A DNA stretch of 64,000 nucleotides. Origin: Candidatus Krumholzibacteriota bacterium (GTDB lineage Bacteria > Krumholzibacteriota > Krumholzibacteriia > LZORAL124-64-63). Positions 54,297-62,509 of the stretch are shown piece by piece (position 1 is the stretch's first letter; each line of letters opens with the position of its first letter). The translations under genes were made by a program, and so were the position numbers. Location of the stretch: the NCBI GenBank assembly GCA_024275485.1, contig JAJRZA010000009.1:1-64000 (forward strand). Direction: 5' to 3'. Under the pieces are notes generated by a model. The model was not told the origin of the DNA, did not search any database, and saw only the letters and a program-made list of their open reading frames with translations.

Positions 54297-57164
54297 TTGG
54301 CTCAGCAGAAAACGAAATTTGATCCTGTGCACGGGGATATCACCATCACCGGTGTGCGAGTCCATAATCTAAAAAATCTCAGCTTGAAATTGCCCCGGCG
54401 CAAACTGGTAGTGGTCACCGGTCCGAGCGGGTCCGGGAAATCCAGCCTGGCCTTTGATACCCTTTACGCCGAAGGTCAGCGTCGGTACATCGAGAGCCTG
54501 TCGAGCTACGCCCACCAATTTCTGGATCAGTTGCCCAAGCCTGATGTTGATCGCATAGAAGGTCTTTCGCCGGCCCTTGCCATCGATCAGAAAGGTTTGG
54601 GACGCAGTCCCCGCTCCACCGTGGGTACGGTGACGGAAATCTATAATTTTTTGCGATTGTTGTACGCTCGTTGCGGGGTTGTTTATTGTCCCGACTGCAA
54701 AGTACCGGCCACCGGTCGCCCTCTTGCTGAAATCGAAGACGAGATCGCTGCCCTGCCCGAGAAAACCCGGTTTTATCTGCTGGCACCGGTGGTCATTGGT
54801 CGCAAGGGACAGCACAAGAAGCTACTGGATGGTCTCCACCAGGAAGGCTATCTGCGGGCACTTGTGGATGGGGAGATGATTGAACTGGAAGACGGTACCG
54901 ATCTGGATCGCAACAAGGTCCACGACATCGCCGTGGTCATCGACGGCATGATCAGCCGGCCGGGTATTCGGGATCGTGTGAAAGCCGGTCTGGAGCGGGC
55001 TGCGGAGCTGGGTCAGGGCAGGGTTATCGTTTGGCGTGACGGCAAACATCAAATGTACAGTCGGGAGAGTTCCTGCCCGGGTTGCGGTCGCGGTTTTCCT
55101 GCATCTGAACCACGGCAATTCTCCTTCAACTCACCTGCCGGCAGTTGTGACGGATGCAACGGTCTGGGCGCCCTTCGCTCAGTACACCCGGAGGCTCTGG
55201 TTCCCGATTCGGAAATGAGCATCGCCTCAGGTGCCATCGAATTTCTCAAGGGCAAGGAAACCAGCTGGCTGTATGTGCAAATCGAAGCCCTGGCCGATGC
55301 AATGGGCTTCACTTTGGAGCAGAGCTTTGAATCCATCGACCAGGAAGCCCGCGACACCCTTTTTCACGGTCCATCCCCCGAAGTGGAAAAGCGACTGCGC
55401 GAGCACAAGCATTTCAACGCCTTTCTGCGCGATTGGACCGGACTGGTGCCCGAATTGGTTCGCCGTCACCAGGAGACCAAAAGCGAGAAAGTCCGGGGCT
55501 CCCTTGAGCGTATGATGATTTTGCAGGAATGCGAAGAGTGCGGTGGGCATCGCCTGCGAACCGAGTCCTTGAATATTAGAATTGGTGGCCTGCACATTGG
55601 TGAAGTCAGCGCCCTTTGTTTGGATGAATTCGCTGAATGGGTGGACAGTCTCGAATTCACCGGCGAGCGGGATCTCCTGGTCAGTCAGCCGGTTCTGGAT
55701 CAGATCCGTTCCCGACTCAAGTTTTTGCTCCAGGTGGGTGTCAGTTACCTCAGCTTGTCGCGGGGCACCAATACTCTCAGCGGTGGCGAAGGCCAGCGGG
55801 TGCGTTTGGCGACCCAGGTTGGCAGCCAACTGACGGGTGTGCTTTACATTCTGGATGAACCCAGCGTGGGGTTGCATCACCGGGACATCAACAAGCTGGT
55901 GAGCACCCTGAAGGCTTTGCGCGACCGCGGCAACTCCGTAATCGTAGTGGAACACGATCGGGATGTGATGCTGGCTGCCGATCATCTGATTGATCTGGGC
56001 CCTGGCGCGGGAGAGCATGGCGGCGAATTGGTGGGTCAGGGTACGGTGCAGGAGATCATGGCCAATGAGGGCACTGCTACGGGAGATTTGCTTGCCGGTA
56101 GAGTTGGAATGGGTGGGCCCGATCCTCTTACCGGAAAATCCAATTTCAAGGGCCCACGACTGCTGCTGACCGGTCTGAGGGGGCGCAATCTCAAAAATAT
56201 TGATTTCGAAGTTCCCCTGGGTCAACTCACGGTGGTCACAGGTGTTTCCGGTTCGGGAAAAAGCAGTGCCGTGCACGAGACTCTATACTTGGCTTTGGCC
56301 GCCAAGCTGCACCGGGCCCGCAAACGTCCCGAACCTTTTGACAAGATGAGTGGCGACGAGCATCTCAACTCGGTGGTGCTGGTGAATCAAACACCCATTG
56401 GGCGATCTCCCCGCAGTACTCCCGCCACCTACACGGGACTATACAACCACATCCGATCTCTCTTTGCCTCCACCAGTCTGGCCAAAATGCGGGGATACAA
56501 GACGGGGCGCTTTAGTTTCAACACCGCCGGCGGACGTTGCCCGGTTTGTGAAGGGGCGGGGTTGCGCAGGCTGACCATGGACTTCCTGCCGGATGTGGAG
56601 GTGCTTTGCGAAGAGTGTGGTGGACGACGTTTTGACCGTGAAACCCTGGAAGTTCATTTCAAGGGTTGCGACATCGCCCGGGTCCTGGAGATGACTGTCG
56701 AAGAAGCCCACCAGCTACTGGAAAAAATCCCTCCCTGCCGCAAGATCCTGGAAACCATGGAGGGTGTGGGCCTGGGGTATCTGCGCCTGGGGCAATCCGG
56801 CGGAACCCTCAGCGGAGGAGAAGCCCAGCGAATAAAACTGGTGAAGGAACTGGTCAAGGGCGGTGCCCGACATACCCTTTATATCCTGGACGAACCCACC
56901 ACCGGTCTGCATTTCTGCGATGTGGACCGGTTGATGAGTGTTCTGGGCCGACTGATTGGGCAGGACAATTCGGTTTTGGTCATTGAACATCATTCGGAGG
57001 TTATTCGTCGGGCCGATCACATCATCGATCTGGGACCCGAGGGTGGAGGACCGGGTGGGCACCTGGTGGCCACTGGCACCATGCAGGATATCATGGCAGT
57101 GGACCATTCCTACACCGGAGCGATGCTGAGGGAACTGTTCGGAAACCAAACAGCTTCTTCCTGA
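54297..57164 (+). CDS. uvrA: Excinuclease ABC subunit A
   Basis: [70 protein letters not shown]. Confidence 0.97.
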
Positions 57165-57360
57165 AATTCCGGTGACTTTTGGCAGGGGCTGGATTCTTGG
57201 GAACAGGGAAAAAGTTGGCTCCGGCACAGGTTGCGGCTTGGCTAACAGCCAACCAAAGGTTATTTTTGGGCCATTGCCAAACTGGAGGTTTTCCGACCGC
57301 CTCCCGGGAATCCATATTCCTGAGCAAAGGCCTTCATTAGCCACCAAAAAGGGTTCTGTT

Positions 57361-58509
57361 GTGAGCGAAACCAACCTGAAACAAACACCCCTGACCGCCT
57401 GGCATGCCTCTCACGGGGCGCGAATGGTGGAATTTGCCGGTTACGAAATGCCTGTACAATATGAAGGGGTTTTGGCCGAACACGCTGTGGTGCGTGAAAA
57501 AGTGGGGTTGTTCGACATCACCCACATGGGCGAAATCTATGTCAGCGGGCCCGATTCCCGCACCTGGATCAGCAGTTTGATTACCAACAGTCTGAAAAAG
57601 AGTGAACCCGGCAATGTGGTGTACAATGCCATGTGCCGTCCCGATGGTGGTGTCTTGGACGACATGCTGGTCTATTGCCTGGCGCAGGAACGCTGGCTGG
57701 TGGTTTGCAATGCCGCCAACCACCATAAGATCATTGGTTGGATGCTGGACAACCTGCCTGCCGATGGCGTGACCCTGGACGACCAAACCGACAGCATTGC
57801 CTTGATCGCCGTGCAAGGACCCGACAGCAGGGAATTGGTTCTACGCCTGGACCCTCTGGCCGAGCTCAAAACCGACATCGCTGGTCTCGACTTTTACACG
57901 GCTCTGACCTACGAAGGACCCGGTGGGCAATGGCTGATTTCCCGCACCGGCTACACCGGTGAGCATGGCTACGAGCTGTACCTGCCCAATTCGGACGCGG
58001 TGCCTGTCTGGGAAGAACTTCTGGCCAAGGGCGAAGATCTGGGCGTGGCACCCATTGGTTTGGCCGCCCGCGACACGCTGCGCTTTGAAGTTTGCTACTG
58101 CCTTTACGGGCACGAACTGGGGGAAGACATCACTCCCCTGGAAGCGGGCATCGGCTGGGCAGTGAAGATGAAAAAGAAGGGTGGCTTCGTGGGTCGCGAC
58201 GCACTGTTGGCCCAGCGAGAACAAGGCGTTCCCCGAAAAATAATCTGCCTTGAACTTGACGGTAAAGGCATCGCCCGCCAGGGTGCCCGTGTTTTGGTTT
58301 CGGGCAAGGATGTGGGGTATGTCACCAGTGGCACCTTCAGTCCGACCTTGAAAAAAGCCCTGGCCATGGCTCTGGTGGAAAATGAACTGCCTGAAGGAGA
58401 ATTGGTCGTGGACGTGCGCGGCCGTCATATCCCATGCCACACCGTGGCGTTTCCATTCTTGTCGGCCCGGACCAAAGATGATCCACAGGCCGATCGGTCG
58501 CTGTCCTAA
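57361..58509 (+). CDS. gcvT: Glycine cleavage system T protein (aminomethyltransferase)
   Basis: TPLTAWHASHGARMVEFAGYEMPVQYEGVLAEHAVVREKVGLFDITHMGE. Confidence 0.96.
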   Translation: MSETNLKQTPLTAWHASHGARMVEFAGYEMPVQYEGVLAEHAVVREKVGLFDITHMGEIYVSGPDSRTWISSLITNSLKKSEPGNVVYNAMCRPDGGVLDDMLVYCLAQERWLVVCNAANHHKIIGWMLDNLPADGVTLDDQTDSIALIAVQGPDSRELVLRLDPLAELKTDIAGLDFYTALTYEGPGGQWLISRTGYTGEHGYELYLPNSDAVPVWEELLAKGEDLGVAPIGLAARDTLRFEVCYCLYGHELGEDITPLEAGIGWAVKMKKKGGFVGRDALLAQREQGVPRKIICLELDGKGIARQGARVLVSGKDVGYVTSGTFSPTLKKALAMALVENELPEGELVVDVRGRHIPCHTVAFPFLSARTKDDPQADRSLS

Positions 58510-58537
58510 CCGATGGCCAACAGCTCAGGAGGCTGAT

Positions 58538-58915
58538 ATGGTTCCCAACGATCGCCAATACACCAAATAACACGATTGGGTCATGGTGGAAGATGGTGTG
58601 GCCACCATCGGCGTGACCGACTTTGCCGCTGGTGAACTGGGTGATATTGTATTTGTTGAAATGCCCGAAGTGGGCGACGATATGAACGCCGAAGATATCG
58701 TCGGGTCCATCGAATCGGTCAAGGCTGTTGAAGACCTTGTCGTACCAGTTTCCGGTGAAGTGGTGGAGGTCAACGTAGCCATCGATGCCACACCAGAACT
58801 GGTCAACAGTGATCCTTTCGACACCGGCTGGCTGTTCAAGGTGAAGCTTAGTGATGAATCCGAACTGGACAAGCTGCTGGATGCCGCTGCTTACGACGAC
58901 ATTCTGGGAGGCTAA
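58538..58915 (+). pseudogene. gcvH: Glycine cleavage system H protein with in-frame TAA at codon 11
   Basis: ATG (58538, SD AGGAGG) reads [45 protein letters not shown]...GSIESVKAVEDL...GG. TAA at 58568-58570 replaces the Glu of the KEHEW motif; the rest is in the same frame and intact, including the lipoyl-Lys region. Confidence 0.9.
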
Positions 58916-58921
58916 AAGGGG

Positions 58922-60283
58922 ATGCCCTACGTTCCACACACGCCTGAAGATATTCAGGCCATGCTCAAGGTCATCGGCGTTGAAAACGTCGACGACCTTT
59001 TTTCTGATTTGCCGGAAAATGTGCGACTGAAAGAGGCGTTGGATTTGCCGGACGGTTTATGCGAAGAAGAAGTCCTGCGCTATTTCATGAAAACCGCCGG
59101 CCAAAATCACGGGCAGGATGAACTGACCAGCTTCCTCGGGGGCGGCGTCTACGATTGCGCGATTCCGGCAGCCGTGGATGCCATCATCAGCCGCAGCGAA
59201 TTTCTGACGGCCTACACGCCGTATCAGCCTGAAGTCAGTCAAGGAACCCTGCAGGCCATTTACGAGTGGCAAACCTTTGTCTGCCGCTTGACCGGTCTCG
59301 ACGTTGCCAACGCCAGCATGTATGACGGAGCCACTGCTCTGGGTGAGGCTGTTCTGCTGGCATTGGCCTCTTCACGCAAACAATCGGTGATCTTGCCCGA
59401 GACCCTGAACCCGCGTTACCACCGGGTTGTGGCCACCATGATGCGTGGATCAGGCAACAAAATTCTGATGGCAAAGGCTGCACCAGTCGGCACCATCGAT
59501 CCTGACAATCTGGCTGAAATCATGACTGATGACATAGGTTGCGTGGTCATCCAGAATCCCAATTACCTGGGACTTGTGGAACAGGTGGATGCCTTGGCCA
59601 AGGTTGTCGAAGGCAGCAAGGCCATCATCGTCGCCGCAGTCAATCCGGTGTCCCTGTCCGTGTTGAAGACACCGGCGCAATACGGTGCCCAAATTGCGGT
59701 GGGTGAAGCCCAACCTTTCGGGATTCCCTGCAGTTGGGGCGGGCCCCTGTTGGGCTTCATGGCCTGCACGGATAAATTGAAACGACGGTTGCCAGGCCGG
59801 GTGGTGGGAGCTACCACCGACAACCGGGGCAACAGTGGTTTTGTATTGACGTTGCAAACCCGGGAGCAACACATTCGGCGAGAAAAAGCCACCAGCAACA
59901 TTTGCAGCAATCAAGGGTTGAACGCCCTGAAAGCAACTGTCTACATGTCCATGCTTGGTACTGAAGGTCTTTTGGAGCTGGGAGAGGCCAACCTGATTCG
60001 CATTGCGGCTGTGCGCAGGGCAGTTGAAGGAATTGAAGGAGTGGAGTTGCCGTATGAGGGACCTGTTTTCAACGAGATGGTTCTGCGGTTGAGTCACCCC
60101 GCCCGGGAGTTCATCGCCTTTGCCCGTCAAAACGGCGTTCTGGCGGGTATCAATCTGGAAAGTTTTCCCGTGGGCACTGAAAATGACCTGCTGGTTGCTG
60201 TGACCGAAAAACGCACGGCTTCTGAAATCGACAATCTGGCTGAACTGCTGACCCGGTTCCACCGTGAAGCGGAGGCGAAGTGA
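58922..60283 (+). CDS. gcvPA: Glycine dehydrogenase (decarboxylating) subunit 1
   Basis: MPYVPHTPEDIQAMLKVIGVENVDDLFSDLP, FLGGGVYDCAIPAAVDAIISRSEFLTAYTPYQPEVSQGTLQAIYEWQT. Confidence 0.96.
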   Translation: MPYVPHTPEDIQAMLKVIGVENVDDLFSDLPENVRLKEALDLPDGLCEEEVLRYFMKTAGQNHGQDELTSFLGGGVYDCAIPAAVDAIISRSEFLTAYTPYQPEVSQGTLQAIYEWQTFVCRLTGLDVANASMYDGATALGEAVLLALASSRKQSVILPETLNPRYHRVVATMMRGSGNKILMAKAAPVGTIDPDNLAEIMTDDIGCVVIQNPNYLGLVEQVDALAKVVEGSKAIIVAAVNPVSLSVLKTPAQYGAQIAVGEAQPFGIPCSWGGPLLGFMACTDKLKRRLPGRVVGATTDNRGNSGFVLTLQTREQHIRREKATSNICSNQGLNALKATVYMSMLGTEGLLELGEANLIRIAAVRRAVEGIEGVELPYEGPVFNEMVLRLSHPAREFIAFARQNGVLAGINLESFPVGTENDLLVAVTEKRTASEIDNLAELLTRFHREAEAK

Positions 60284-61770
60284 TGAACAACCAACGTTGG
60301 AACGCCACGGCTCCCAAATCACTCTTTGATCAGGGGGTTGCCGGTCGACGTGCCACAACATTTCCCCGCTGGGATGGTGAAGACCTGCTGGTGGAATTGC
60401 CTGCGGAGGTTCGCCGGGCCGAAGCCGCCGATTTCCCATCCCTCAGTGAACCCGAGGTGATGCGCCACTTCACCCAGCTGAGCACACTGAACCATCATAT
60501 AGAACGTGGAATGTATCCTCTGGGCAGTTGTACCATGAAATACAACCCGCGCATCAATGAAAAAGTGGTGGGTTTGTCGGGCCTAGCCGATCTTCATCCG
60601 GAGCAAAGCATCGACGATGTGCAGGGGCTTCTGGGGGCCCTCAAACTTCTGGAGAAAAGTCTTTGCACCATCACCGGTTTTGATTCCTGCAGTTTGCACC
60701 CGGCTGCCGGGGCCCACGGGGAATACCTTGGCATGCTGGTGATTCGGGCTTTCCACCTGGGCCGGGGCGACCGTGACCGTGTGGAAATTCTGATCCCCGA
60801 TTCCGCCCACGGCACCAATCCCGCTTCGGTCGTTATTGCCGGCATGATTCCGCGCACCATCAAGTCTCGCCACGATGGGCGCATTGATCTGGATGCTTTA
60901 CGGGAAGCGGTTGGTGGAAAAACCGCCGGCATCATGATCACCAATCCCAACACCCTGGGATTGTTTGAAAACGGTATTCGGGAAGTGGCCGACATCATTC
61001 ATGAGGCCGGTGGCAAACTGTACATGGATGGTGCCAACATGAATGCCATCATGGGCAAGGCCAGGTCCGGCGATATGGGTGTTGATGTGGTGCACCTGAA
61101 TTTGCACAAAACCTTCAGTACTCCCCACGGGGGTGGAGGCCCAGGTTCGGGTCCCATTTGTGTGACGAAAGAGCTTGCTCCATTTCTTCCCGGCCCCTGG
61201 ATTCATGAAGAGGATGACGGCAGCTACAGTTTGAAGAAAATGCCGGTTCAGGGTAGCAACAGCATCCATACCCATTTCGGCAACGTGGGAATTTGCTTGC
61301 GGGCGTTGGCCTACATTCTTCGTCTTGGCGGCAACGGTTTGACGCGTTGCACCGAAGCAGCGGTGCTGAATGCCAACTATCTGCTGCGCCAGTTGGAACC
61401 AATCATGGATGTAAAGCACGGCCAGGGCTGTCTTCATGAATTCGTGGCCAGCGGCTCTTCCTGGAAAAATGATTTCGGTGTGCGCACTCTGGACATCGCC
61501 AAACGCATGTTGGATTTCGGAGTACACGCACCGACGATTTATTTTCCGCTCATCGTGGAGGAGGCCTTCATGGTCGAGCCCACTGAGACCGAGTCTCGCG
61601 AAAGCCTGGACCATCTTGTTCAAGTTTTGCGGGCAATCCACCAGGAAGCACGGGAAAATCCGGAAATTGTAACCGGGGCGCCGCACACCACTCCGGTTGG
61701 GCGCCTGGACGAAGCAACCGCCGCCAGAAACCCGGACCTTCGTTGGGCCGGACCCTGCAACTGCGGGTGA
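60280..61770 (+). CDS. gcvPB: Glycine dehydrogenase (decarboxylating) subunit 2
   Basis: YPLGSCTMKYNPRINE, LHPAAGAHGEYLGMLVI, HLNLHKTFSTPHGGGGPGSGPI. Confidence 0.97.
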   Translation: MMNNQRWNATAPKSLFDQGVAGRRATTFPRWDGEDLLVELPAEVRRAEAADFPSLSEPEVMRHFTQLSTLNHHIERGMYPLGSCTMKYNPRINEKVVGLSGLADLHPEQSIDDVQGLLGALKLLEKSLCTITGFDSCSLHPAAGAHGEYLGMLVIRAFHLGRGDRDRVEILIPDSAHGTNPASVVIAGMIPRTIKSRHDGRIDLDALREAVGGKTAGIMITNPNTLGLFENGIREVADIIHEAGGKLYMDGANMNAIMGKARSGDMGVDVVHLNLHKTFSTPHGGGGPGSGPICVTKELAPFLPGPWIHEEDDGSYSLKKMPVQGSNSIHTHFGNVGICLRALAYILRLGGNGLTRCTEAAVLNANYLLRQLEPIMDVKHGQGCLHEFVASGSSWKNDFGVRTLDIAKRMLDFGVHAPTIYFPLIVEEAFMVEPTETESRESLDHLVQVLRAIHQEARENPEIVTGAPHTTPVGRLDEATAARNPDLRWAGPCNCG

Positions 61771-61774
61771 TGAG

Positions 61775-62509
61775 GTGTCGGTATTAAGGGTTCATTTCGA
61801 TGGTGCCTTGACGGGGACCGTCAATATGCAACGCGACCGTGATCTGCTGACTGGCCAGCAGCCCGGCGATGATCCCGTGTTGCGTCTTTACCGCTGGCAA
61901 CCTTTTGCCATTACCATCGGGTATAACCAGGATTTCGAAAACTTCAACCAGGCGGCCATCGGCGATAGTGGATTTACCTTGGTGAAACGGCCCACCGGCG
62001 GACGGGCAATCTTTCATGCCGAAGAACTGACCTACTGCATCTGCGGTGCATCACCGGGGCCGTTGTTCGGTAACTCCCTGCACGATTCCTACATGAAAAT
62101 CAATGAAGCCCTGGTTTTGTTTCTGGACCGATTGGGCTTGCAATCGGAAGTCAGCGGAGGAGAAAGCCGCGAGGCCATGAATTCACTAGTCTGTTTCACG
62201 TCCACGGGCAAGCATGAAATCGGGGTTGGCGGGCGCAAGCTGGTTGGTTCGGCCCAGCGCAGAACCGGAGGTGTTTTCCTTCAGCACGGATCCATCCTGA
62301 CGGGGCAGCAACATCTGCGTTTGCCTGAATTCTTGTTACCAGGTAGTCATGGTGCGGGAATGTCTAAGGAAGAGCTGGCTGGACTGACCACTGATCTTGG
62401 CCGGGAGTTGGGCCGTGATATTACTGTCGGTGATCTTGTAAAAATGGAACATGAACTGGCGGAATGTTTTTCCCAGATCCTGGGACTTGACCTGGTAGTT
62501 GAAAAGTAA
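61775..62509 (+). CDS. Lipoate-protein ligase/octanoyltransferase family protein
   Basis: VLRLYRWQPFAITIGYNQDFENFN, LVKRPTGGRAIFHAEELTYCI, GGRKLVGSAQRRTGGVFLQHGSIL. Confidence 0.9.
   Translation: MSVLRVHFDGALTGTVNMQRDRDLLTGQQPGDDPVLRLYRWQPFAITIGYNQDFENFNQAAIGDSGFTLVKRPTGGRAIFHAEELTYCICGASPGPLFGNSLHDSYMKINEALVLFLDRLGLQSEVSGGESREAMNSLVCFTSTGKHEIGVGGRKLVGSAQRRTGGVFLQHGSILTGQQHLRLPEFLLPGSHGAGMSKEELAGLTTDLGRELGRDITVGDLVKMEHELAECFSQILGLDLVVEK

Follow-up and report, generated by a model that had tools for sequence, protein, structure and literature searches.

The reassignments of stop codons on record in bacteria involve UGA, according to a large genome screen that also cautions over erroneous stop inferences (PMC8629427). 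A glutamate meaning of UAR is described for the trypanosomatid Blastocrithidia, in which UAA and UAG occupy Glu positions and UAA continues to serve as a terminator (PMC12153298). G-to-T errors are known to arise when guanine is oxidised as DNA is sheared (PMC5521083). Here we analyze an in-frame TAA in the gcvH gene of a Krumholzibacteriia draft genome assembled from environmental DNA (3.98 Mb, 106 contigs, about 96% complete), located in a window of 64,000 nucleotides (contig JAJRZA010000009.1, positions 1 to 64,000). The gene resembles other members of the GcvH family (PF01597) in its full-length match, its ESVKA region and its place in a gcvT-gcvH-gcvPA-gcvPB operon, and differs from them by a single TAA at codon 11, seen in this assembly alone. 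We conclude with considerable confidence that this TAA is one of many consensus substitution errors of the draft, and not a sign of new decoding.

Reading from the ATG at 58538, the frame encodes 10 residues, meets the TAA at 58568-58570, and continues in frame as HDWVMVEDG ... DILGG up to a terminal TAA, as the preliminary description had stated; it therefore lacks the uninterrupted frame of a regular GcvH. A search with PF01597 returned a match that runs through the stop (141 bits, E 4e-41, profile positions 1-118 of 122, with "1 TAA" inside) and covers the whole length of the gene, including the ESVKA lipoyl-lysine region, so that the claim of an intact downstream part is borne out. Comparison with sister genomes, which the preliminary description had proposed, placed the TAA at the Glu of the KEHEW motif: the five same-genus genomes read MVPxDRKYTKEHEW, and all five carry GAA or GAG at the site, in agreement with the single G-to-T step suggested earlier. 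In the source genome the motif reads stop-HDW, with E13 also altered to D; besides the stop, three private changes (K7Q, E13D and T54I) fall at conserved positions. The features of the locus are listed in Table 1.

Table 1 Features of the gcv locus in window coordinates.
Feature	Position	Strand	Basis
gcvT, intact (start approximate)	57391..58509	+	76.8-89.5% identity to congeners
Shine-Dalgarno sequence AGGAGG of gcvH	58527..58532	+	Sequence; kept in congeners
gcvH, glycine cleavage H protein, broken at codon 11	58538..58915	+	PF01597 across the stop; five-congener alignment
In-frame TAA at the KEHEW Glu codon (GAA/GAG in congeners), most likely a wrong consensus base	58568..58570	+	Sequence; congeners; genome-wide stops
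Next in-frame ATG, possible restart, without Shine-Dalgarno sequence upstream	58583..58585	+	Sequence
gcvPA, intact	58922..60283	+	74-91% identity to congeners
gcvPB, intact	60280..61770	+	78-92% identity to congeners
Lipoate ligase-like frame, intact	61697..62509	+	65-78% identity to congeners

To place the gene among its relatives, 58 genomes were searched, the source genome included. GcvH was present in 56 of them, and the main copy is interrupted solely in the source genome, the main copies of the other genomes being free of internal stops. Among named records, the closest are for the most part drafts of Candidatus Krumholzibacteriia. A PF01597 profile search of the source genome (3.98 Mb, 106 contigs) gave no second GcvH, so the earlier suggestion that a second intact gcvH could mark this copy as a plain pseudogene does not apply.

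The surrounding genes (gcvT, gcvPA, gcvPB and the lipoate ligase-like gene) are all intact against the congeners, as previously proposed, and share 78-92% identity with the nearest one. The start of the lipoate ligase-like frame (window 61697-61775) overlaps the end of gcvPB; because codon 15 of this leader is a stop in congeners, the true start probably lies near 61775. Across uvrA and the gcv operon (window 54297-61770), private third-position G-to-T changes number 19 in the source lineage versus 4 in the nearest congener. This surplus, mostly CTG to CTT, is silent codon drift, and the coding-strand G-to-T excess in six genes was for that reason rejected as evidence of error.

We then surveyed 1.28 Mb of the source genome (32%), studied in stretches, for comparable stops, using a six-frame coding-signal scan, a reciprocal comparison of its proteins with those encoded in about 1 Mb of G003, a congener, and profile and structure-library matches. 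About 22 stops inside conserved genes were found (11 TAA, 10 TAG and 1 TGA), a count that is a matter of judgement, since many scan candidates (ordinary gene ends, opposite-strand shadows) were discarded by eye. The density is about 1 per 17,000 codons, which, if the sample is typical, extrapolates to about 60-70 such stops genome-wide. The interrupted genes include rpoA, thrS, prfA (RF1), guaB, hutU, uup, gmhA, an amidase, a sigma-54 activator, a sigma-70 factor, a response regulator, an HDOD protein, an RND pump and a protein kinase. The Uup-like gene with its in-frame TAA surfaced through an ABC ATPase profile search; a release factor profile search found RF2 intact and a single RF1 gene, broken by a TAA that structure alignment places at a Glu position. 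The gcvH stop is thus not special to gcvH. Reciprocal comparison revealed no convincing in-gene TAA or TAG stop in the approximately 1 Mb of G003, and no stop interrupts the corresponding site in the thrS, gmhA, amidase, rpoA and RND pump genes of the sisters; the stops flagged for rpoA in two sisters lie in the leader of the query sequence. Three in-frame TAA/TAG codons lie within 20 kb (L219:5058, 8874 and 15809; G000:C18:1-20000), above the average density, and this cluster may mark a region of low depth in the draft. A single in-frame TGA (L275:7853) lies in a TPR/SPOR-domain protein, in a context that is not selenoprotein-like.

The residues replaced by the stops were assigned where possible. 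Sister sequences place Glu at the stops in gcvH, guaB, rpoA (GAA/GAG in three congeners) and L263:14821, Ser (TCG) at L221:14307 and, in a membrane-spanning segment of the RND pump, Gly or Ala. Alignment with solved structures gives Glu for RF1, and Glu or Asp for the sigma-54 activator and hutU. Judging by what is typical of their families, the stops in the response regulator and the sigma-70 factor presumably fall at Glu sites, and that in a PD40 repeat at L217:7125 we take to replace, probably, Trp. The aligned residue varies in Uup and ThrRS, and is Lys in GmhA. Glu accounts for 10 of about 14 assigned sites, a predominance to be expected of G-to-T changes, which turn GAA and GAG into TAA and TAG.

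These observations are best explained by a wrong consensus base at 58568, in which case the living cell would most likely carry an ordinary sense codon there and make a normal H protein. Comparable damage occurs in genes of all kinds, essential ones included. Cells in which the RNA polymerase alpha subunit, threonyl-tRNA synthetase and RF1 were truncated should not be viable, and the stops are therefore either absent from the cells or read through. Long-read indel errors were rejected as the cause: only one or two frame breaks are apparent in about 70 thousand codon pairs, and since indels are nearly absent, the pattern is of the substitution type. The sequences flanking the stops share no motif of the kind that would indicate modification-linked miscalls. 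At L210:14987-14991, two frames of the source genome that form one long frame in the sister G003 (L203:12602-15908) meet with a frame shift, which may be a gene split, a fusion or an indel error.

The consensus errors would be substitutions in which G-to-T (C-to-A) changes are prominent, as in guanine-oxidation artefacts. The likeness to the C:G>A:T artefacts of 8-oxo-G (PMC5521083) lies in Glu-to-TAA/TAG being a G-to-T change, and Ser TCG-to-TAG the corresponding C-to-A change on the opposite strand. However, the artefacts described there are low-frequency variants at read level, whereas in the source genome they would have reached the consensus, and the probable Trp-to-TAG case needs another change. 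Missense and silent errors would be expected from the same process. Given G-to-T base errors, Asp-to-Tyr should arise about as often as Glu-to-stop, and an Asp-to-Tyr surplus may be the visible hint of this: private Asp-to-Tyr changes number 5 in the source genome versus 1 in reverse, and 4:0 in the most conserved stretches, small numbers that alone are not significant. Some observations count against consensus error. Glu is over-represented at the stop sites relative to a plain two-stranded process, since an evenly two-stranded G-to-T/C-to-A error would, by codon usage, give Glu a share of a little over half; G-to-T changes are in no general excess at first codon positions in the six genes surrounding gcvH; and the contigs are long, so that depth should have been fair.

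The preliminary description had left four options unranked: sequence error, nonsense mutation, readthrough and restart. The approximately 22 similar stops, several of them in essential genes, now favor the first and lower the other three. A real, recent nonsense mutation would make gcvH a pseudogene in this strain and switch off the glycine cleavage system. It would take one G-to-T step from GAA and affects the source genome only, and the three other private changes that gcvH carries at conserved sites also count in its favor. Yet the remainder of gcvH and its operon are intact, and like stops in indispensable genes make a separate cause for gcvH improbable, so that we regard this explanation as unlikely.

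Less likely still is a dual meaning of TAA and TAG, in which both would still act as stops but also be translated, for the most part as Glu, at about 60-70 positions within genes, among them those in rpoA, thrS, gcvH and the RF1 gene, through an altered tRNA and a weakened RF1. Such recoding would agree with the almost exclusive involvement of TAA and TAG, with Glu as the commonest replaced residue and with the interruption of the RF1 gene itself, and the Glu meaning of UAR in a trypanosomatid is in its favor (PMC12153298). That organism is, however, a eukaryote, whereas the sites of the source genome are rare (about 1 internal use per thousand Glu codons), are not all Glu and have no matching tRNA: no suppressor tRNA with a TTA or CTA anticodon was present among the tRNAs found in the genome, which is about 96% complete. 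Stops also fall at Ser and Gly/Ala sites and probably at a Trp site, and a simple code in which TAA and TAG mean Glu therefore does not fit. In addition, TAA and TAG terminate 301 of 640 long frames, which upholds the earlier doubt about a global reassignment. Nor is the trait common to relatives: congeners have GAA or GAG in gcvH (5) and rpoA (3), and their thrS, gmhA and amidase genes are open. The bacterial reassignments on record, which concern UGA, likewise speak against recoding of this kind.

Equally improbable is a real stop bypassed locally, by leaky readthrough (the TAA is followed by C) or by restart at the in-frame ATG 58583, which begins 15 bases downstream of the first base of the stop codon, for this ATG is preceded by no Shine-Dalgarno sequence, as had been noted before, a restart there would drop the conserved KEHEW segment with which the fold begins, and the other interrupted genes would be left unexplained.

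As for UGA, a tRNA-Sec gene that scores above the Rfam cut-off lies at G000:C51:92769-92862 on the minus strand (L156:12769-12862), and in-frame TGA codons occur in thioredoxin-like UxxC motifs of the source genome (L211:17196) and a sister (L232:13892), and in a SelD-like start of a sister (L167:1658). From these sequence contexts together with the tRNA gene, the data suggest that the genus really recodes UGA as selenocysteine.

With consensus error as the preferred explanation of the gcvH stop, the draft carries a caution: a completeness of 96% does not protect a draft from base errors by which dozens of genes look broken on paper, and any proposal of readthrough or recoding for a single interrupted gene should first take into account how often such stops occur across the whole assembly. 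Were the stop real and bypassed, UAA and UAG would have a dual meaning in a bacterium, where the known stop reassignments concern UGA; and if recoding were true, readthrough of the RF1 messenger would itself determine the level of RF1.
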